From: Acidobacteriaceae bacterium
GTDB lineage: Bacteria; Acidobacteriota; Terriglobia; Terriglobales; Acidobacteriaceae
DNA length: 50,130 nt
Assembly (NCBI GenBank): GCA_003142015.1
Contig: PLOI01000093.1
Coordinates: 25,464-75,593 of the forward strand
Direction: 5' to 3'
Shown: piece after piece, positions 9,405 through 49,968 of the stretch
Position numbering within the stretch: position 1 is the first letter of the stretch
How the letters are laid out: each line of letters starts with the position of its first letter
The notes under the pieces: generated by a model
Told to the model about the DNA's origin: nothing
Databases searched by the model: none
The model's input: only the letters and a program-made list of their open reading frames with translations
Made by a program: the position numbers and the translations under genes

Positions 9405-9426
9405 GTCCGGGAGGATGCGCACTGGA

Positions 9427-11178
9427 ATGAAGATTAAGAAGACTGCCCCCTGGACGCGCCGCCGGCTGCTGAGTACCATCCCTGCAGCCCTCGCTCCCGC
9501 GCTGCTCCCCGGCAGTCTCCTCGCAGCGCTCCCAGCGGCAAAACCTGCTCCTCCGTTTTCCCGCTTTGTCGATGTAGCCCACGCCGCCGGCCTCACTGCC
9601 ACGATGATCTACGGTGAGCCCGACAGCTTTACTTACATCATCGAATCCATGGCCACCGGCTGCGCCTTCTTTGACTTCGACAATGACGGCTGGATGGACA
9701 TCTTTATACCCGGCGGCCGCCGTCTGGAAAACACTCCGCCCGAGGCCGGCAACCACCTTTACAAAAACAACCGCGACGGCACCTTCACCGACGTAACCGC
9801 CAAGGCCGGTCTGCTACGCAGCGGCTGGGCGCAGGGCGTCTGCGTCGGCGACTACAACAACGACGGCTTCGAGGATCTCTTCCTCACCTACTACGGGCAG
9901 AACAAGCTCTATCGCAACAACGGCGACGGAACATTTACGGATGTAACGGCCAAGGCCGGCTTGCTTTACCCCACCACCCGCTACAGCACCGGCTGTACCT
10001 TTGTGGACTACAACCGCGACGGCCTGCTCGATCTGTTTGTCTCCAACTATCTGGAAATCGATCTGGCCACGGCGCCCAAGCCTTCCATGGCCGTGCCCAA
10101 CTGCAACTACGAGGGCGTGCCCGTCATGTGCGGTCCCGAAGGCCTGCCCAAGGCACACCACTACCTTTATCGCAACAACGGCGACGGTACCTTCACCGAT
10201 GTTTCCCAGGAGTCCGGCGTGGCCGGCTTGCGCGGCTCGTATGGACTTACAGCTCTCAGCATCGATGCCGACGAGGACGGCTGGCCGGATATCTTCGTGG
10301 CCTGCGATTCCACTCCGTCTTTTCTGCTGATGAACAACCACGACGGCACTTTCCGCGAGGAAGCTCTCTTCCGCGGTCTGGCTCTCAGCGGCGAGGGCCG
10401 CGAGATGGGCGGCATGGGCGCCTGCGCCGGAGACTACAACCTCGACGGCCACACCGACCTGGTCAAGACCCACTACTACAATCAGGCCACCGGGCTCTAC
10501 CGCAACGACGGCAAGGGAAATTTCGACGATGTAACCATTGAGGCCGGCCTCAACAAGGAGACCCGCTTCGTTTGCTTCGGCGCCGGGCTGGTGGACTTCG
10601 ACAACGACGGCTACCCCGACCTGCTGCTCACCTCGGGCAGCGTCTACCCCGAGGTAGCCAAAGTCTCGCCGCGCTTTCCCGCGCGCAGCCCTCGCATCCT
10701 CTTTCGCAATCAGGGCGACGGCACTTTTATCGAGATGGGGCCGGAGGCTGGACCAGGGATTACTACGCCTCACATGGGACGCGGCGCGGCCTTTGGCGAC
10801 TTTGACAACGACGGCGATATGGACGTGCTCATCATGAACGTGAATGAGCCGCCCTCGCTGCTGCGCAACGACGCGCCGCCCGGCAACCACTGGATCAAGA
10901 TTCGTCTGGAAGGCACAAAAAGCAATCGCAGCGCCATCGGCTCACGCGTTCTGGCGCGCTACGGCGGCAAGGTGCAGGTGCAGGAGGTGCTGAGCGGCTC
11001 CAGCTTCATCTCGGCCAACGATCCGCGCCTGCACTTCGGACTCGGCTTGGCAACCGCCGCGGATATTGAAATTCATTGGCCGCTGGGCCTGGTCGAAAAG
11101 TATCCCGGTCTTCCCGCCGGCCAGTTGGTCACCATCCGCGAAGGCCAAGGCATCGTGAAGGGCCGTCCCTTCCGCTAG
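9427..11178 (+). CDS. CRTAC1-like ASPIC/UnbV and FG-GAP repeat protein
   Basis: A large exported protein of about 583 residues. The N-terminus has a Tat-like twin-arginine signal (TRRRLLSTIPAALAPALL). The body consists of VCBS/FG-GAP repeats with calcium-binding loops of the form DFDNDGWMDIF, DYNNDGFEDLF, DYNRDGLLDLF, DADEDGWPDIF and DFDNDGDMDVL, expected to build a beta-propeller. The C-terminal ~100 residues (from NHWIKIRLEGTKSNRSAIGSRV) match the ASPIC/UnbV domain. Function in bacteria is not established; such proteins are common in Acidobacteria next to TPR proteins, as here. The ATG at 9415 sits directly against the GGGAGG ribosome site, so 9427 is preferred. Cell-surface or periplasmic location is inferred. 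Confidence 0.88.
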   Translation: MKIKKTAPWTRRRLLSTIPAALAPALLPGSLLAALPAAKPAPPFSRFVDVAHAAGLTATMIYGEPDSFTYIIESMATGCAFFDFDNDGWMDIFIPGGRRLENTPPEAGNHLYKNNRDGTFTDVTAKAGLLRSGWAQGVCVGDYNNDGFEDLFLTYYGQNKLYRNNGDGTFTDVTAKAGLLYPTTRYSTGCTFVDYNRDGLLDLFVSNYLEIDLATAPKPSMAVPNCNYEGVPVMCGPEGLPKAHHYLYRNNGDGTFTDVSQESGVAGLRGSYGLTALSIDADEDGWPDIFVACDSTPSFLLMNNHDGTFREEALFRGLALSGEGREMGGMGACAGDYNLDGHTDLVKTHYYNQATGLYRNDGKGNFDDVTIEAGLNKETRFVCFGAGLVDFDNDGYPDLLLTSGSVYPEVAKVSPRFPARSPRILFRNQGDGTFIEMGPEAGPGITTPHMGRGAAFGDFDNDGDMDVLIMNVNEPPSLLRNDAPPGNHWIKIRLEGTKSNRSAIGSRVLARYGGKVQVQEVLSGSSFISANDPRLHFGLGLATAADIEIHWPLGLVEKYPGLPAGQLVTIREGQGIVKGRPFR

Positions 11179-20657: not shown

Positions 20658-21455
20658 TCAGATGAGTTCGCGGCGCAAAACACACACGACCGCAGCGATC
20701 AGTCCAGTAATGTCGGATGGGTCGGCCTCCGCTGCGGGCGGCCAACCGAGTTCGCGTAGCGTCTTACTGGTAACCGGTCCAATCGAAACAGCCGGAACCA
20801 GGGCAATCGGCCACGCAACATTCGCAGCGCGCGCCGCTTCCGCCAGATGGGTTGCGCTGGAAGAGCTCGTAAAGGTGACCGCGTCGATTCCGCTGCGAAT
20901 AGCACTGCGCAGTTGCTCCGGCGCGGCTTTGGGCAGAACGTTGCAGTATGCGTCCACCACATCGACCGCGACGCCAGCAAGGCGCAATGATTCGGGAATC
21001 ACATCACGGACAACGGCAGCCCGCGCCAGCAGAATTCGCTGGCCGGATGGCTTGCTTTGGAGCGTTTGCAGTAACCCCTCGACCAGGCTCTCCGCCACGT
21101 ATGCTTGCGGGATAAAAGCAACCTTGAATCCAGCCTTGCGCGCTTCAGCAGCCGTCGATGCGCCCACCGCGGCCACCTTCAGCCAGGCAAGCTGTGACAC
21201 CGAAATTCCCAACGCCGCCGCGCGCTCGACGAGCGCGTGTACCGCGTTGGCGCTGGTCAGGATGAGCCAATCGTAGCTTGCGAACTGGCGGAGAGCAGCA
21301 TCCAGCGGCGTGAAACTGGCCGGCGGATGAATCTCCAGCACCGGAACCTCGACCGGCTCCGCGCCCAGCGCGCGCATTCCTTGGCTGAGCTTGCCCGCCT
21401 GATGCGCAGCGCGGGTCACCAGAATCCTGCGACCTAGCAGCGGCGGCAAACTCAC
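20658..21455 (-). CDS. hemD: Uroporphyrinogen-III synthase
   Basis: Cyclises hydroxymethylbilane with inversion of ring D to give uroporphyrinogen III. The 265-residue protein has the weakly conserved HemD two-lobe pattern: LLGRRILVTRAAHQAGKLSQ at the N-terminus, PVLEIHPP, YDWLILTSANAVHALVERA, the hinge VAAVGASTAAEARKAGF, the second-lobe DAVTFTSSSSATHLAEAA and the end VSIGPVTSKTLRELGW. The start overlaps the hemC stop by 4 nt (ATGA), so translation is coupled. Last gene of ccsA-hemA-hemC-hemD. Sequence conservation is always low in this family; context settles the call. Confidence 0.92.
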   Translation of the reverse strand: MSLPPLLGRRILVTRAAHQAGKLSQGMRALGAEPVEVPVLEIHPPASFTPLDAALRQFASYDWLILTSANAVHALVERAAALGISVSQLAWLKVAAVGASTAAEARKAGFKVAFIPQAYVAESLVEGLLQTLQSKPSGQRILLARAAVVRDVIPESLRLAGVAVDVVDAYCNVLPKAAPEQLRSAIRSGIDAVTFTSSSSATHLAEAARAANVAWPIALVPAVSIGPVTSKTLRELGWPPAAEADPSDITGLIAAVVCVLRRELI

Positions 21456-38984: not shown

Positions 38985-41900
38985 TTACGCTACAAAATAT
39001 TTGGCCTGGGGATGGTGGACGACGATGCAGTTGGTGCTCTGCTCGGGCTCCAGATGGAAGCCCTCGGTGAGCCGCACGCCAATGTTCTCCTCGGGTTTGA
39101 GAAGACGGAAAATCTTCGCCTGATCTTCCAGATTCGGGCAGGCTGGGTAGCCGAACGAGTAGCGGGAGCCGCGATATTTCTGATGGAAGAGATCGGCAAC
39201 ACGCGGCGAATCTTCGCCGGCAATGCCGAGGAATTCGCGCACTTGTTTGTGAACCAGCTCGGCCAGCGCCTCGGCCGTTTCCACAGAGAGGCCATGCAGA
39301 TAAAGGTACTTGGTAAAGTCGCCGGCCTCGAAGAGCCTGGCAGTTTGACGGCTGGCCTCGTCGCCGACGGTGACGATGGAGAAACCCACAACATCGCGTT
39401 GCGCGGAACTCAACGGCTCAAAGAAATCGGAGATTGAGAGCCTGCGGCCCTGCGCCTGGCGCGGGAAGGTGATGCGTTCCAGTTCGCGGGCCGGATCGTC
39501 CGGATCGAAAACGATCAGGTCTTCGCGGTCGCTGGCGCAGGGATAGAAGCCGATAATCGACTTAGGCTCAAACCAGCCCGCGGCTTTCACTTCTTCCTCG
39601 AGGTCGAGCAGGATGGGACGGTATTTTTCTTCCACGAGGCGCAGATAATCGCCCTGCGCAGCGGTCTTGAGTTGCCACTGATTTTTGAAGAGCGCAGTCT
39701 CGTTGATATAGGGAAAGATTTCGTCGAGCTTGTAATTCTTGAAGACGCGCGCGCCCCAGAAGGCCGGCTTGGGGATGGCCGCGACCTGCTCCACGACCGG
39801 CGAACGGCCCTCCGGCGTGAGTTCGACGAGGGTCAGCTCAGGGGCAGCCGCGCCGCCTTTGCCAAAGACCTTCACCGTCCGGCCTTCCGCTTCCCTGCTT
39901 TCGCGCACTGCTTGGTCCGCCGAGGTTAGATCGGCCATGGTATGCAATCCTGCGAAGGCGTCTTCGGCATAAAAGACCGGCCCAGCGTACTCCTTGCGCA
40001 GGTCTTCTTCGACATACTTGCGAGTGAGCGCAGCGCCGCCGCAGATGACGGGCACGGTGAGGCCAAGCCGCTCCAAATCCTGCAACACATACTTCATTTC
40101 GAGCGTGGACTTGACCAGCAGTCCGCTCAAGCCGATAGCATCGGCGCCAATCTCCTGCGTGGCGGCGATGATGGCGTCAGAGGGCTGCTTGATGCCCAGA
40201 TTGACGACGCGATAGCCGTTGTTCGAAAGGATGATGTCCACGAGATTTTTGCCGATGTCGTGCACGTCGCCCTTGACCGTGGCCAGCACCATGGTGCCTT
40301 TGCCGCCGCCGTCGGATTTTTCCATCTTCGGTTCAAGATACGCAACCGCGGCCTTCATCACCGCGGCCGAATCGAGCACCGAAGGCAGCTGCATCTTGCG
40401 CGCGCCGAAGAGATCGCCGACGGTCTTCATGCCGTCGAGCAAAACCGTGTTAATCAGTTCGAGCGGTGAGTGAGCTACGAGCGCGGCTTCCAGGGTATCA
40501 GTGAGCGATTGCTTGTGCTCGCCCAATCCAATGGTCCGCTCGCCGCGAATAATCATCTGCTTGAGTTTTTCGTCGGTGGTGAGACTCTCGACCGCTATCT
40601 CCTCTTCCTGCACGGAACCTTTGCCGAGGCTGGCAAAGTAGGCCATGTAAACCTGGAGCGGGTCGCCACTGCTGCGGTCCTGAAAGATGAGTTTGCGGGC
40701 TAACTCGACTTCTTTCTCGGGAATCTTGTAGAGCGGATAGATTTTCGAATAGTTGACGATGGCCGCGTCGAGTCCGCGGTCCACGGCCTCCTTAAGAAAG
40801 ACCGAGTTGAGCACGCGGCGCGCATATGCGTTCAGGCCGAAGGAGATGTTGGAGACGCCAAGCACCGTCCGCGAGCGCGGCAGTTCGAGCTTAATGCGCC
40901 GCACCGCTTCAAGGGTCTCGATGGCCGCCGAGCGATAGTCTTCCTGGCCCGTTGAAATCGGCAGGGTGAGCGCGTCGAAGATTAGATCCTCGGAACGCAG
41001 GCCGTACTTGTTGACGGCCAGATCGTGAATGCGATGGGCGATGGCCACCTTGCGGTCTGCGGTCAACGCCATGCCCTGTTCGTCGATGGTGAGCGCGATA
41101 ACCGCTGCTCCGTAACGGCGCGCCATGGGCAGCACGAGGCTGGTGCGCTTCTCGCCGTCTTCCAGGTTGATGGAGTTGATGATGGGCTTGCCGGGGATGC
41201 GCTTGAGCGCCTCTTCGATGACGCCGGCCTCGGTTGAATCAACCAAAATGGGCGCGGGAACGCGGGTGGCGATCATCTCGAGGACCGCGTTCATGTAAGC
41301 CTGCTCGTCCTCGCCCACGATGGCACAGCAGAGATCGAGCATCTGCGAGCCTTCGCCGGTGAGTCGCTTGGCCAAGGTGAGAATGCCGTCGTAGTCGCCC
41401 GCGCGCACCATGTCGCGAAAGGTTTCGAGGCGGGTGGTGGTATTCATCTCCTCGGCGATGATGATGGGCTGCGCATCGGCTTCGAGCGGCACGGCACTGA
41501 AGGCGCTGGCGGCAACCGATTGTTGCGGCACTGCGCGCGGGGCGGGCGTTACTCCCTTTATTGCTTCGGCAACTGCGCGCAGATGCTCAGGCGTGGTGCC
41601 GCAACAACCGCCGACTACCTGCACACCATACTCGGTAACGAACCGGCGAAGATAAGCGGCCAGCTCGGCCGGGGTGAGTTTGTAGACAGCGTGGCCGCCC
41701 TCGTTCTGCGGCAGGCCGGCGTTGGGCAGCACGCTGATGGGCAGGGTGGAATTCTGGCAGAGAAAGCGAACCGCGTCGTTCATTTCCGCCGGGCCGGTGG
41801 CGCAGTTGAGGCCGATCACGTCGGGCTGAAGGCTTTCCAGCACGGCCAAAGCCGCGCCGATCTCCGAGCCGAGCAGCATGGCGCCGGTTGCTTCGAGGGT

Positions 41901-42506
41901 GATCTGGACCTGAAGGGCAACTGCGCGGCCGGTGGAAGGGATGTGGCCCTCGCGAGCGTCGCGAATTGCGTCCTGACAGGCGGCGAGAGCGATCTTGGCC
42001 TGCAACAAGTCCTGGCAGGTTTCAATCAGCAGCACATCCACGCCGCCCTCGATGAGGGCCTCGGCCTGCTCGCGATAGGCGACGGCCATGGCGTCGTAGC
42101 CAATATGGCCCAGCGAGGGCAGTTTGGTGGTGGGGCCGATGGAGCCGGCGACAAAGCGCGGCTTATCAGGAGTGGAGTATTCGTCGGCCACCGAGCGAGC
42201 CAGCCGCGCTGCGGCGATATTCAACTCGCGGGTGCGGCTCTGGAGGTCATACTCGGCCAAAACGATGCTCGACGAACCGAAACTGTCGGTTTCAATTACA
42301 TCGCAACCAGCCTCAAGAAACGAGGCATGAATGGCGCGAATGACGTCGGGCCGCGAGAGCACCAGTAGCTCGTTGCACCCCTCCTTGCCCTGGAAATCCT
42401 CCGGCGTGAGGTTGTGCTTTTGCACATTTGTGCCCATCGCGCCGTCAAAAACCAGCACGCGCCGTTTCAGCTCTGAAAGAAAATCCGCCAATGTTCGCTC
42501 CTGCAC
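38985..42506 (-). CDS. metH: Cobalamin-dependent methionine synthase
   Basis: Methylates homocysteine using methyl-cobalamin and methyltetrahydrofolate. The 1173-residue protein contains all four modules: the Hcy/zinc domain (VLVFDGAMGTNVQ, GLNCATGPAEM, VVGGCCGTTPEHL), the pterin-binding domain (MLDLCCAIVGEDEQ, ILVDSTEAGVIE, INSINLEDGEK), the cap and B12 domain with the axial His motif DVHDIGKNLV and GLSGLLVKST, and the C-terminal activation domain (FEPLSSAQRDVVGF, SFGYPACPNLEDQ). The presence of an activation domain implies reductive reactivation by a flavodoxin-type partner. It ends at 38985. No cobalamin or SAM riboswitch is seen in the short 69-nt upstream gap. Confidence 0.98.
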   Translation of the reverse strand: MQERTLADFLSELKRRVLVFDGAMGTNVQKHNLTPEDFQGKEGCNELLVLSRPDVIRAIHASFLEAGCDVIETDSFGSSSIVLAEYDLQSRTRELNIAAARLARSVADEYSTPDKPRFVAGSIGPTTKLPSLGHIGYDAMAVAYREQAEALIEGGVDVLLIETCQDLLQAKIALAACQDAIRDAREGHIPSTGRAVALQVQITLEATGAMLLGSEIGAALAVLESLQPDVIGLNCATGPAEMNDAVRFLCQNSTLPISVLPNAGLPQNEGGHAVYKLTPAELAAYLRRFVTEYGVQVVGGCCGTTPEHLRAVAEAIKGVTPAPRAVPQQSVAASAFSAVPLEADAQPIIIAEEMNTTTRLETFRDMVRAGDYDGILTLAKRLTGEGSQMLDLCCAIVGEDEQAYMNAVLEMIATRVPAPILVDSTEAGVIEEALKRIPGKPIINSINLEDGEKRTSLVLPMARRYGAAVIALTIDEQGMALTADRKVAIAHRIHDLAVNKYGLRSEDLIFDALTLPISTGQEDYRSAAIETLEAVRRIKLELPRSRTVLGVSNISFGLNAYARRVLNSVFLKEAVDRGLDAAIVNYSKIYPLYKIPEKEVELARKLIFQDRSSGDPLQVYMAYFASLGKGSVQEEEIAVESLTTDEKLKQMIIRGERTIGLGEHKQSLTDTLEAALVAHSPLELINTVLLDGMKTVGDLFGARKMQLPSVLDSAAVMKAAVAYLEPKMEKSDGGGKGTMVLATVKGDVHDIGKNLVDIILSNNGYRVVNLGIKQPSDAIIAATQEIGADAIGLSGLLVKSTLEMKYVLQDLERLGLTVPVICGGAALTRKYVEEDLRKEYAGPVFYAEDAFAGLHTMADLTSADQAVRESREAEGRTVKVFGKGGAAAPELTLVELTPEGRSPVVEQVAAIPKPAFWGARVFKNYKLDEIFPYINETALFKNQWQLKTAAQGDYLRLVEEKYRPILLDLEEEVKAAGWFEPKSIIGFYPCASDREDLIVFDPDDPARELERITFPRQAQGRRLSISDFFEPLSSAQRDVVGFSIVTVGDEASRQTARLFEAGDFTKYLYLHGLSVETAEALAELVHKQVREFLGIAGEDSPRVADLFHQKYRGSRYSFGYPACPNLEDQAKIFRLLKPEENIGVRLTEGFHLEPEQSTNCIVVHHPQAKYFVA

Positions 42507-46731: not shown

Positions 46732-47610
46732 TCAGCGCCGGGCCCCCGGCGGCACGGATCGGCCGTGGTTATTGGCCGGCGGGGTGGTGACAGGCTTGCG
46801 TGCAAGGCGCGGCTTGAGGGACTGCTGGCAAAGCGCTGAGTCCTGCCCGCGCGCCAATTCCGGAGCGACACTGGGCGCGCCGCAGAGGCGCTGCTTCATG
46901 GCCTCGGCTTCCTTGCCCATGAGCATTTGGGTGCGCTCCAGGCCGCTGAAGGGGTCCAGATCGTAGCGATAAATTATGTCTTCCGGCTTCTTTTCAGCGC
47001 CGTAGTCGAAGTGGTTCCATGTGCCGACCAGTTGCCGTCCGTTTGGCTCGCTCAGGACCGCGTAAACCTGGGTCAGATCAACGCCCTCGGAAGGATTCGT
47101 GTTCCAGATGGGCACGGCCTGGGTGCCGCGCATCCAGCGGCCTGTCCACATATGATGCGGCAGGTCGTAATGGAAGGCAGTCAGGAAGGTGGACGCGGCG
47201 CACTCGTTGCAGTTGTCGTAGAGAGCGCCGAGTTCGCGCGGCGCGCCATCGGCCAGGAGCATCCAGTCGAGCAGGCGCAGGTTAACGCCCTGGAGCAGCG
47301 GCGCAACCACGTGGCTGGTGAGCGAGAGGTTCCACACGGTGAATGTGTCAGCCGAGGGCGGCGACTGAGGATTAGCGCGCAGTGTGGTGACAACCAGAGC
47401 AGCGTCGTACTCGACTCCGATCTCGCGAATCGCCGTCCATTTTTCCGGCTCCAGGGAACGCTTGACCCACGCGACGACATTCTGGTCCTTTGCGGAGTGG
47501 AAATCGACCCAACGAAAGCTGTCGGGGGACTGCTGGGCGGATAAGGGAGCTGCGACGAAAAGCGTTGCCGCAATCAAGAAAAACAAGAGCGAAGAAGATG
47601 CGAACCGCAT
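46732..47610 (-). CDS. Exported protein of unknown function
   Basis: A 292-residue protein with a clear signal peptide (MRFASSSLLFFLIAATLFVA, then APLSAQQ). The mature part has a CNEC pair in NCNECAASTFLTAFHYD near residue 138 and a further Cys near the C-terminus, and ends in a Pro/Arg-rich tail. No family is recognised. It lies 82 nt upstream of the YXWGXW gene on the same strand and may be co-transcribed with it. Confidence 0.7.
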   Translation of the reverse strand: MRFASSSLLFFLIAATLFVAAPLSAQQSPDSFRWVDFHSAKDQNVVAWVKRSLEPEKWTAIREIGVEYDAALVVTTLRANPQSPPSADTFTVWNLSLTSHVVAPLLQGVNLRLLDWMLLADGAPRELGALYDNCNECAASTFLTAFHYDLPHHMWTGRWMRGTQAVPIWNTNPSEGVDLTQVYAVLSEPNGRQLVGTWNHFDYGAEKKPEDIIYRYDLDPFSGLERTQMLMGKEAEAMKQRLCGAPSVAPELARGQDSALCQQSLKPRLARKPVTTPPANNHGRSVPPGARR

Positions 47611-47853
47611 GAGTCTAGGGTATCGCAGAGAGGCGCTCGAGGTTCACTCGATATGCTTTTTCCAGGCTTTGGAGTGCGGGAAAAATTTCCTTACACGTGC
47701 ACATGTTTGAGATTATTTCTGGTACAAAATTGCGGACGATTGCCAGGCCGGAGGACGCGGAAAGCATAGTTCAGGGGTCGAAGCCTCGCGCCCTGGAGGC
47801 TGCTGAATTACCGGCCTATCGCCCCCGGAACGTGAGCGTGTGAGGTTCATCGT

Positions 47854-47888
47854 CTCCCACATCTCAAAATCGGGATGTGAGCCACCGA
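47854..47888. repeat. REP-like hairpin, diverged copy
   Basis: CACATC and GATGTG pair around a TCAAAATCGG loop, within CTCCCACATC/GGGATGTGAG. The loop is shared with the hairpin at 37870-37895. Confidence 0.6.
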
Positions 47889-47903
47889 GAAATTCGCCAA
47901 AAT

Positions 47904-47919
47904 TGTTTCACGTGGAACA
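47904..47919. other. parS: parS-like ParB-binding site
   Basis: The 16-mer TGTTTCACGTGGAACA is an imperfect palindrome; its complement TGTTCCACGTGAAACA fits the chromosomal parS consensus TGTTNCACGTGAAACA at every fixed position. Such sites bind ParB and load the chromosome segregation complex and SMC near oriC. It is intergenic, as parS sites may be. Only one copy is in the window; no parA or parB gene is here. Confidence 0.8.
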
Positions 47920-48123
47920 TATTCATTCTTTTGACTTTAGGTGCATGTTTACCACTTAATTAACCGCAATATATTTGGGCTGTTAGCAAGAGATTTTGGG
48001 CGGCAAAAAGGCGAAGTTTGCAAAGCATAAAAAGTGGATGGGAAAAGGAGATAAGTGGCTTGAAAAACTGAATATTTTGGGATACGAGAAGCCGTCGGCT
48101 TGGTGGGTTGAGGTTCGTGGTAT

Positions 48124-48160
48124 CCCACCCTTCGCCAGGTACGCGAAGGATGGGGCACCC
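48124..48160. repeat. REP-like hairpin (CCCACCC / GGATGGG family)
   Basis: CCCACCCTTCGC (48124-48135) pairs with GCGAAGGATGGG (48143-48154), 12 bp with one wobble, followed by GGCACCCGGCACCCGG. The inverted counterpart is at 4411-4450. Confidence 0.7.
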
Positions 48161-48183
48161 GGCACCCGGCTCGCTACAACCCG

Positions 48184-48219
48184 CTCATCGCGATGAGACC
48201 GCGATGAACGGGGCACAGC
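48184..48219 (+). repeat. 36-nt palindromic repeat, copy A
   Basis: CTCATCGCGATGAG (48184-48197) is a perfect palindrome within a 36-nt unit ending GGGGCACAGC. The unit matches copy B at 49969-50004 in inverse orientation, with two mismatches, where it overlaps the end of the RAYT gene. Confidence 0.8.
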
Positions 48220-48335
48220 TTCTCATAGCTCATAGTGATTCTTCGGGGCTGATGAACGGGCCACCTGCCCAAAAAGTCTGACGAGAAGAATATTGCAGCG
48301 CAAAAACCAAGAAAACCACCTATCCGAAACCTCTT

Positions 48336-49088
48336 TCAGTTCTTTCCAGGGAGTTTGTCGCAGGCGTCGCTGTAGCTTTCGATCGTGCAGGCCTTGCGAT
48401 AGAGCTCGACCGCCTTAGGTTTGTTCTGGGGCACTCCATCTCCAGAATCGTAGACTTCACCGAGAAATAAGCAGCCGTCTGCATTGCCGCTATCGCAGGC
48501 CTTGAGAAACAGCGTAACCGCTTGAGGCACATCTTTCATTATGCCGGTCCAGATTGTTCCTCCAATCCCGTCACGGTAAATCTTGCCAAGCGCAACGCAC
48601 CCGTTCATAATTCCGCTATCACACCCTCTACGAATGAGCGTAACCGCTTGAGACGCATCTTTGCTCACGCCTTTCCCGTCACGGTACATATAACCAAGAA
48701 AAAGGCACCCGCGCATATCTCCGCCGTCACACCCCTTGTGTAAGAGCACAACCGCCCGATCAAGATCCTTCATGATACCGTCAGAGGTTGAGTACATATC
48801 GCCGAGAGACGTACAGTCGCTCATCTTTCCGTTGTCGCAGTTCCTGCTATAGATCGCAACCGCACGCCCATACCACACGGCTGCCTGGGCAAGATCCTTA
48901 CTTTGCCCCACAATTTCGCCAGCGCCAGTCTCATCCCAAAAGCCCAAGGATTTGCAGGCGTCTCCGTCTCCCGCATCGCACCCTTTTTGCCACTCGCCGT
49001 AAGGGCCACCCTGCGCGTGCATCAGAGGCGTGGCAAGACAAAGGAGCACACTAATTATCAGCGGCATACTCATCGAATGCTTCATCAT
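48336..49088 (-). CDS. Exported Cys-rich Sel1-repeat protein
   Basis: A 250-residue protein with a signal peptide (MPLIISVLLCLATPLMHAQ) followed by about five Sel1-like (TPR-related) helical repeats, with units such as HKGCDGGDMRGCLFLGYMYRDGKG, RRGCDSGIMNGCVALGKIYRDG and LKACDSGNADGCLFLGEVYDSGDG. Each repeat has a Cys pair like the Helicobacter Hcp proteins, where they form disulfides. Role unknown; Hcp-like proteins are secreted and bind beta-lactam or host factors, but this cannot be assumed. It is downstream of the Rap1a/Tai-like gene on the same strand (66-nt gap). Confidence 0.85.
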   Translation of the reverse strand: MMKHSMSMPLIISVLLCLATPLMHAQGGPYGEWQKGCDAGDGDACKSLGFWDETGAGEIVGQSKDLAQAAVWYGRAVAIYSRNCDNGKMSDCTSLGDMYSTSDGIMKDLDRAVVLLHKGCDGGDMRGCLFLGYMYRDGKGVSKDASQAVTLIRRGCDSGIMNGCVALGKIYRDGIGGTIWTGIMKDVPQAVTLFLKACDSGNADGCLFLGEVYDSGDGVPQNKPKAVELYRKACTIESYSDACDKLPGKN

Positions 49089-49154: not shown

Positions 49155-49784
49155 TCAGTGACAAGGCCAGAGATGGTCGATCGCGTTTGCGGTGGAGTCT
49201 TCCGTATTATCGACGTAAAGCTCTTTGTGGTCTTTTAACCAGGTTAAAACTTTGTCCGTAAGCTCTTTGGTTTCGATATTATCCGGCGAACTGCAATGCG
49301 CGCTCTTGCCATTCATTGTTAGCGCCGCGTATGCGTTAATGCTGGCCTGTACCACCTCATTTGCGCACACTACGTAATGCTTGGTGTCGCCGCAAAAGGT
49401 CACAAATGCGCCGGTTTTATCCGGTACGCCACGGGAGGTGTGGCCAGTGGCCACAGATTTCTGACAATTCCAGAGTGCCTTGATAGCCGTTTTGATTCCG
49501 TCTTCCGTGCTCATGTCGGCGGTAGCCGGATGTGCCGAGAGCCAGCCGACAATGGCTCTGTCGCCTTCATTGCTTGTGATGCCATCGGGCACCGAGCATT
49601 CGAGGGCGTCAAACTGCACAACTTCGATCTTGCTGCTGCAATCCTCCTTCAAGGGAGTGCAGTAGCTGGCGAACGCTCCGGCTTTCGCAGGAACACCCTG
49701 AGCCCGGACTGTGCACGGATTCAGAAACGACGCAGCAAGGAACAGCATCGAGGTCTTGAAAGAGATTCGTTTCCACCCTGCCAT
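49155..49784 (-). CDS. Exported protein with two Rap1a/Tai-like domains
   Basis: A 209-residue protein with a signal peptide (FKTSMLFLAASFLNPCTVRAQ) and a tandem duplication: both halves start GVPxKxGAFxxxC and end ALWNC or DHLWPC, with two inner Cys positions per copy. This fits the Rap1a/Tai family, which includes immunity proteins against type VI amidase effectors. Start at 49784 keeps AGGAA 9 nt away; the Met at 49793 sits directly on it. It is the first gene of a likely pair with the Sel1 gene. Immunity function is only a suggestion. Confidence 0.65.
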   Translation of the reverse strand: MAGWKRISFKTSMLFLAASFLNPCTVRAQGVPAKAGAFASYCTPLKEDCSSKIEVVQFDALECSVPDGITSNEGDRAIVGWLSAHPATADMSTEDGIKTAIKALWNCQKSVATGHTSRGVPDKTGAFVTFCGDTKHYVVCANEVVQASINAYAALTMNGKSAHCSSPDNIETKELTDKVLTWLKDHKELYVDNTEDSTANAIDHLWPCH

Positions 49785-49968
49785 TGTTGTCATTTCCTAT
49801 TCTGATGAATATATCGGATTGGTGAGACAAACACAGCAACATTCAGCATGGAATCACTATTTCGTGTCCGATTCGTCTGATATTCGCTTCACAGCCCTAG
49901 CTTGGCCCAGAGCGGCAGGTGGCCCGGGCATCGATTCAACTTCCTTCAATCATTAGCCAAGATGGAAG

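Follow-up and report, generated by a model that had tools for sequence, protein, structure and literature searches.

Interspersed repeats of the REP/BIME and MITE types are short, multi-copy and palindromic, and in Firmicutes the sites bound by Noc are dispersed. By the account given in a review (PMC7333895), the Noc site is two bases off parS and has a protein of its own; the same account describes the clustering of parS near the origin, presents the loading of ParB on parS and the recruitment of SMC as established in model bacteria, and lists as an open question the reasons for the variation in parS number and for the clustering. In Pseudomonas aeruginosa, as reported in PMC5098823, ten scattered parS sites were proposed and another study predicted only four near oriC, and parS works within ~650 kb of oriC. 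A second parS cluster in Caulobacter is reported to be best tolerated within ~500 kb of the origin region, less tolerated near ter, and least tolerated at mid-arm (PMC5815017). On the mobile side, the parS-like sites of SGI1 are reported to hijack the parABS system of an IncC plasmid (PMC10954446), and this was the nearest case in the open-licence literature searched, in which the listed titles and the opening parts of abstracts mention no parS in dispersed chromosomal repeats.

The system described here resembles chromosomal ParABS in having a 16-base palindrome, a pair of sites between rsmG and parA, and a ParB with LGKGL and GERR stretches, and is unlike it in that most copies of the palindrome lie inside a dispersed repeat. 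With REP/BIME and MITE repeats it has in common its shortness, its multiple copies, its palindromes and, in one relative (G157), composite forms, the difference being that one of the palindromes here is a centromere site. The likeness to Noc sites is that a ParB-type site lies away from the parS cluster, but here it is parS proper that is dispersed, and the genome yielded one ParB, which scored 216.9 against the Noc model TIGR04285, under the cut-off of 315. SGI1 is comparable as mobile DNA with copies of another replicon's parS, though, as described in PMC10954446, it is a large island mimicking a plasmid parS, whereas the DNA described here is a short, multi-copy repeat whose parS is that of the host chromosome itself.

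The window analyzed is a stretch of 50,130 nucleotides that spans positions 25464-75593 on contig C12; the genome is a draft (3.42 Mb, 167 contigs, 88% complete), and draft genomes may hide further parS copies. At 47904-47919 the window has TGTTTCACGTGGAACA (unstranded), by its motif a putative ParB-binding palindrome, which differs from TGTTTCACGTGAAACA by one base, agrees with TGTTCCACGTGGAACA at 15 of 16 positions, and is the sole match in the window at up to three mismatches (shuffled sequence gave a mean of 0.12). Genome-wide there are seven TGTTNCACGTGNAACA sites against ~0.007 expected from base composition, and a reversed-pattern control in the same genome gave 0; six of the seven are the perfect palindrome TGTTCCACGTGGAACA, and the window site alone is asymmetric. 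Two sites, C24:13899 and C24:13942, both fully symmetric, lie between rsmG and parA, with parB directly downstream of this parA-side pair. The ParB protein, the one match found in the genome, has the stretch LGKGL in its N-terminal part, together with a GERR motif, which we take to be marks of a chromosomal ParB. The asymmetric form of the window is itself parAB-adjacent in three members of the same genus, G063 and G069 (the sole site in each) and G085 (one of two), whose ParA proteins are 86-90% identical to that of the source genome. Across the genus, ParA, ParB or RsmG was found nearby at 27 of 29 loci, one locus of 1.8-3 kb being taken for each of 29 of the 62 other site-bearing genomes, and the exceptions were G086 and G157; in the family set the figure was 23 of 30 loci (49 other genomes with a site). 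Because the motif is the same as that of the rsmG-parA pair, it can be identified as parS, and the variant in the window, parAB-adjacent in relatives, is among the forms in use. This makes the 16-mer a real copy of this organism's parS, and the original prediction of a near-perfect site at this position stands.

The site lies in a gap bounded by two minus-strand ORFs, one of 292 aa at 46732-47610, which neither Pfam nor NCBIfam models matched at E 0.001, and one of 250 aa at 48336-49088 with Sel1 repeats (PF08238, E 9e-28); an ORF with a Rap1a immunity-protein domain (49155-49793, E 1e-11) adjoins the latter. The gap was said to be AT-rich, which is borne out by a G+C content that falls from 50.5% over the whole gap (47611-48335) to 46.9% at 47640-48100 and 36.5% at 47900-48080, compared with 59.7% for the window. 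It was also said to be otherwise empty, but much of it is taken up by a repeat at 47898-48128. The REP-like neighbors are present as described, in the form of a hairpin at 48112-48166 (unstranded; 24-nt arms, 75% complementary), which overlaps the far edge of this element, and a separate repeat at 48180-48269 (unstranded) with a 92% identical copy at C12:75976-76065, beyond the window. A promoter-like site (47948-47975) and a terminator-like site turned up as well, each no better than expected by chance. As for the metH gene and heme operon attributed to the window, metH is located at 38985-42506, 5.4 kb from parS, and the part of the heme operon that was examined is a uroporphyrinogen-III-synthase-like ORF at 20658-21455 that scores under the curated cut-offs.

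All five parS sites away from parAB (C4:1125, C12:2437, C12:73367, which is that of the window, C65:13037 and C115:4194) lie at one edge of a common repeat of 59-438 bp and 73-86% identity; the copies are on four contigs and have unrelated upstream flanks, the closest other site on contig C12 being 71 kb from the window site. A core common to the five copies, consisting of parS and the start of the tail, occupies 47898-47962 on the plus strand (blastn, alignment and in-register test), and the long form of 231 bp occupies 47898-48128 on the same strand (blastn and alignment; 86% identity with C65:13037 and 83% with C12:2437). Similarity begins at parS or up to 18 bases 5' of it, and runs for 59-80 bases (73-85% identity) in pairs involving the two short copies, for 231-243 bases when the window copy is compared with the remaining two long ones, and for 438 bases between those two (82-86%). 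By the strict in-register test, five of the seven sites have a repeat partner elsewhere, those without being the parAB pair, and at offsets of 300 and 600 bases a partner was found for none of the seven. A 116-base window query containing parS and tail recovered these five places; its only other matches were 15-21 bases long and mostly parS itself. The window copy, the one whose setting was checked, sits outside genes, between two ORFs.

The tail contains a second, AT-rich palindrome, CACTTAATTAACCG, at 47953-47966 (unstranded). In copy C4 an IS1595-family element sits inside this palindrome, which without the IS reads CAGATAATTATCTG. The insertion (C4:1185-3162, locus L081) is 1978 bases long and has a transposase domain (E 2.6e-38), 22-base inverted ends with two differences, and an 8-base target duplication; being an insertion inside the repeat with its own ends and duplication, it was ruled out as the parent of the repeat. 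The insertion holds, in addition, a stop-to-stop open frame of 248 aa that Pfam models did not match at E 0.01. The repeat itself showed no transposase belonging to it and no empty site was found, and 330 bases of copy C12:2437 gave 0 matches in plasmids and 0 in phages. Rfam models at gathering score did not match the element in the window, C65, C115, C4, two G086 or three G157 loci, the only Rfam matches at those loci being two tRNAs on C65, and DNA folding of three copies gave z values of 0.79, -2.46 and -1.38, with no consistent structure. A scan of named genomes for CACGTGGAACATATTSATT, which may leave out records of the source or a very near genome, returned six stretches with one match each, from named taxa of several phyla, and these were read as chance. 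When a 470-base query was compared with 99 relatives, with up to six candidates scored per genome, all listed matches outside the source genome fell in its far part (bases 272-442). Most of the listed matches to this query are to a separate short repeat at L071:2761-2831 (query bases 331-401), and 53 of 58 other genus genomes have matches to the query.

Among 80 genomes of the genus, including the source, 63 have at least one parS site and 77 have 0-4, the outliers being the source genome with 7, G086 with 20 and G157 with 35. Two other members of the genus therefore have parS-repeat bursts of their own, since in both G157 and G086 parS lies within dispersed repeats, whose tails differ from those of the source genome and from each other. 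The strict test found a partner for 28 of 33 sites examined in G157 (35 in the genome) and for 8 of 20 in G086. Of the 12 partnerless G086 sites, 7 make up the parAB cluster, which was recognized from counterparts of rsmG and parA at that locus. Composite forms of the repeat in G157 contain two or three parS each; at C345:907-1113 (L401, L416) three exact parS are found in ~210 bases. In the family set of 60 genomes, including the source, 50 have a site, and G005, G014 and G017 have 15, 12 and 15. A first impression of shared repeat tails at the G005 and G014 sites was rejected by the strict test, which found partners for 0 of 14 (of 15 sites) and 0 of 12, and for 0 of 15 in G017; the scattered, partnerless sites of these three genomes indicate that dispersed parS also arises without a detectable repeat. 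Two of the exact G017 sites (C1:962134 and C1:1397054; L103, L104), read by eye, apparently lie inside mutL-like and hisC-like frames.

In the five copies of the source genome, mean pairwise identity is 97.5% in parS, 74.7% in the next 45 bases of the tail and 30% in the 60 bases upstream, although the copies were first picked by the parS pattern, so that the identity of their parS is partly by construction. For G157 a tail-only model was made from 45 bases of tail without parS in 14 copies with exact parS (tails 86% alike on average) and applied to ten genomes with an E threshold of 0.1. Among the 150 of 2,763 first-look candidates that were scored in G157 there were 20 matches, all of which abut parS, 19 exact and one with a single mismatch. 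Fourteen of the 20 are the training copies; in the remaining six (C143, C294, C339, C419 and two on C345) parS is exact in five and has one mismatch in one, so that where ~13 differences would be expected at the tail rate in 96 parS bases, one was seen. Elsewhere the model gave one weak match in G061 (15 bits) with no parS, and nothing in the source genome, G086 or the other six of the ten. The end of the G157 tail away from parS is also conserved, making a unit with two conserved ends, and the conservation of parS is thus not proof of selection by ParB. That parS is almost unchanged while tails diverge is supported, but partly by construction; the 116-base query in the source genome and the six new G157 matches test it more freely.

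These observations are best read as the uptake of parS by short interspersed repeats, which then multiplied in separate lineages and retained it. It is quite likely that the window 16-mer is a genuine parS at the edge of such a repeat and that, judging from its motif, it would be bound by ParB. A chance match, already refuted by the counts of seven sites against ~0.007 and none in the control, is so improbable as to be negligible. The original prediction went further in taking parS to mean that the window is origin-proximal, and a window in the centromere region near oriC, its site acting with those adjacent to parAB, is an unlikely alternative. In its favor, the window motif is the variant found at parAB in relatives, an ORF of the window (9415-11178) has in G113, another member of the genus, a 66% identical counterpart that lies ~187 kb away from parAB, and the C4 element, in a stretch without a G063 counterpart, adjoins sequence ~114 kb from parAB in G063. 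The 292-kb parAB contig of G063 contains many counterparts of C24 and C4 ORFs, but none of C12, C65 or C115 ORFs at 50% identity and half coverage (C12 ORFs of 120 aa or more), and among the other window ORFs none passed 45% identity over half length within 200 kb of parAB in G113. The counterparts of metH lie 0.63 Mb from parB in G017 and 1.33 Mb in G047 (also of the family, a single contig of 4.13 Mb). For G017, a single contig of 3.69 Mb, GC skew was sampled in 31 stretches covering 620 kb. Up to 1.487 Mb, 10 of 12 stretches had negative skew, and beyond that point, as far as 3.2 Mb, 13 of 17 had positive skew; this sign change places the origin probably near the parAB cluster at 1.497 Mb. 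The dnaA gene was rejected as an origin marker, as it is 0.41 Mb from parAB in G017 and the sign change is nearer parAB. The other G017 parS sites are 0.06 to 1.37 Mb from that cluster. In G113 the skew changes sign at parAB, with further changes within the 400 kb read, and in G063 the skew was uninformative. Synteny thus does not place the window near the origin, though it may, as far as gene order indicates, fall in a wider zone of several hundred kilobases. The sites are dispersed with the repeat rather than clustered, two of the seven being at parAB and five on the repeat, over four contigs, and a site at the edge of a repeat found at five genome places need not mark a replication origin. 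The scattered exact sites that had been named as counter-evidence were largely found; the earlier interpretation is partly supported, in the identity of the parS motif, and is without support in the proximity to the origin.

Two other explanations accept the repeat and question what parS does in it. The palindrome might mark the end of a mobile element and be retained because a transposase uses it, with no remaining link to ParB, as its position at the element edge in five of five copies, the conservation of both ends of the G157 unit, and weak internal inverted pairs, at 47916-47931 with 48063-48078 in the window copy (81%) and over 16 nt in one G086 copy (81%), would suggest. We consider this very unlikely, given that three genomes with different tails all retain the sequence found between rsmG and parA, and that the sole IS found has its own ends and interrupts the repeat instead of forming its borders; moreover, no inverted repeat was found in the C115 copy or the one G157 copy tested, and, in five of six window pairs listed, none joins the outer edges of the window copy. 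It is also unlikely, if less so, that the copies are neutral relics of a repeat that once spread with parS and is now bound weakly or not at all. The imperfect symmetry of the window copy and two decayed parS copies seen by eye in G157, near L330 and L336, are consistent with relics, whereas one base changed in 80 parS positions, where tails differ by about a quarter, the exact parS in five of six new G157 tail matches, and a 116-base parS and tail query that saw no decayed copy in the source genome speak against them.

If short repeats did take up parS and multiply, the most likely first step would be the acquisition of parS by a short repeat, or the growth of a repeat around parS; the parS-bearing repeat would then have been copied to other places. 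Such repeats are presumably mobile now or were so once, or else owe their spread to recombination, and parS was probably kept in them through its binding by ParB. Each copy would nucleate a ParB clamp and could recruit SMC, and the chromosome would in this way have secondary ParB sites distributed around it in addition to the centromere at parAB. We put at about even the chance that a centromere-carrying repeat multiplied, apparently on separate occasions, in three or more lineages of the genus and so seeded ParB/SMC loading sites chromosome-wide. The number of parS sites would then have grown by copying and dispersal, in contrast to a stepwise expansion beside the native cluster, and genomes with 20-35 copies, where these are repeat-borne, would be natural experiments on the near-origin rule. 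Insertions in Caulobacter and Pseudomonas are reported to indicate that extra or moved parS sites do best near the native cluster or the origin, and so either all copies would stay within a permissive zone or these bacteria would tolerate more distant centromere sites. A practical warning is that a parS motif alone cannot place a contig near the origin. The exact palindrome TGTTCCACGTGGAACA is also present in at least 120 stretches of viral contigs, some of which may be prophages or phages with parS.
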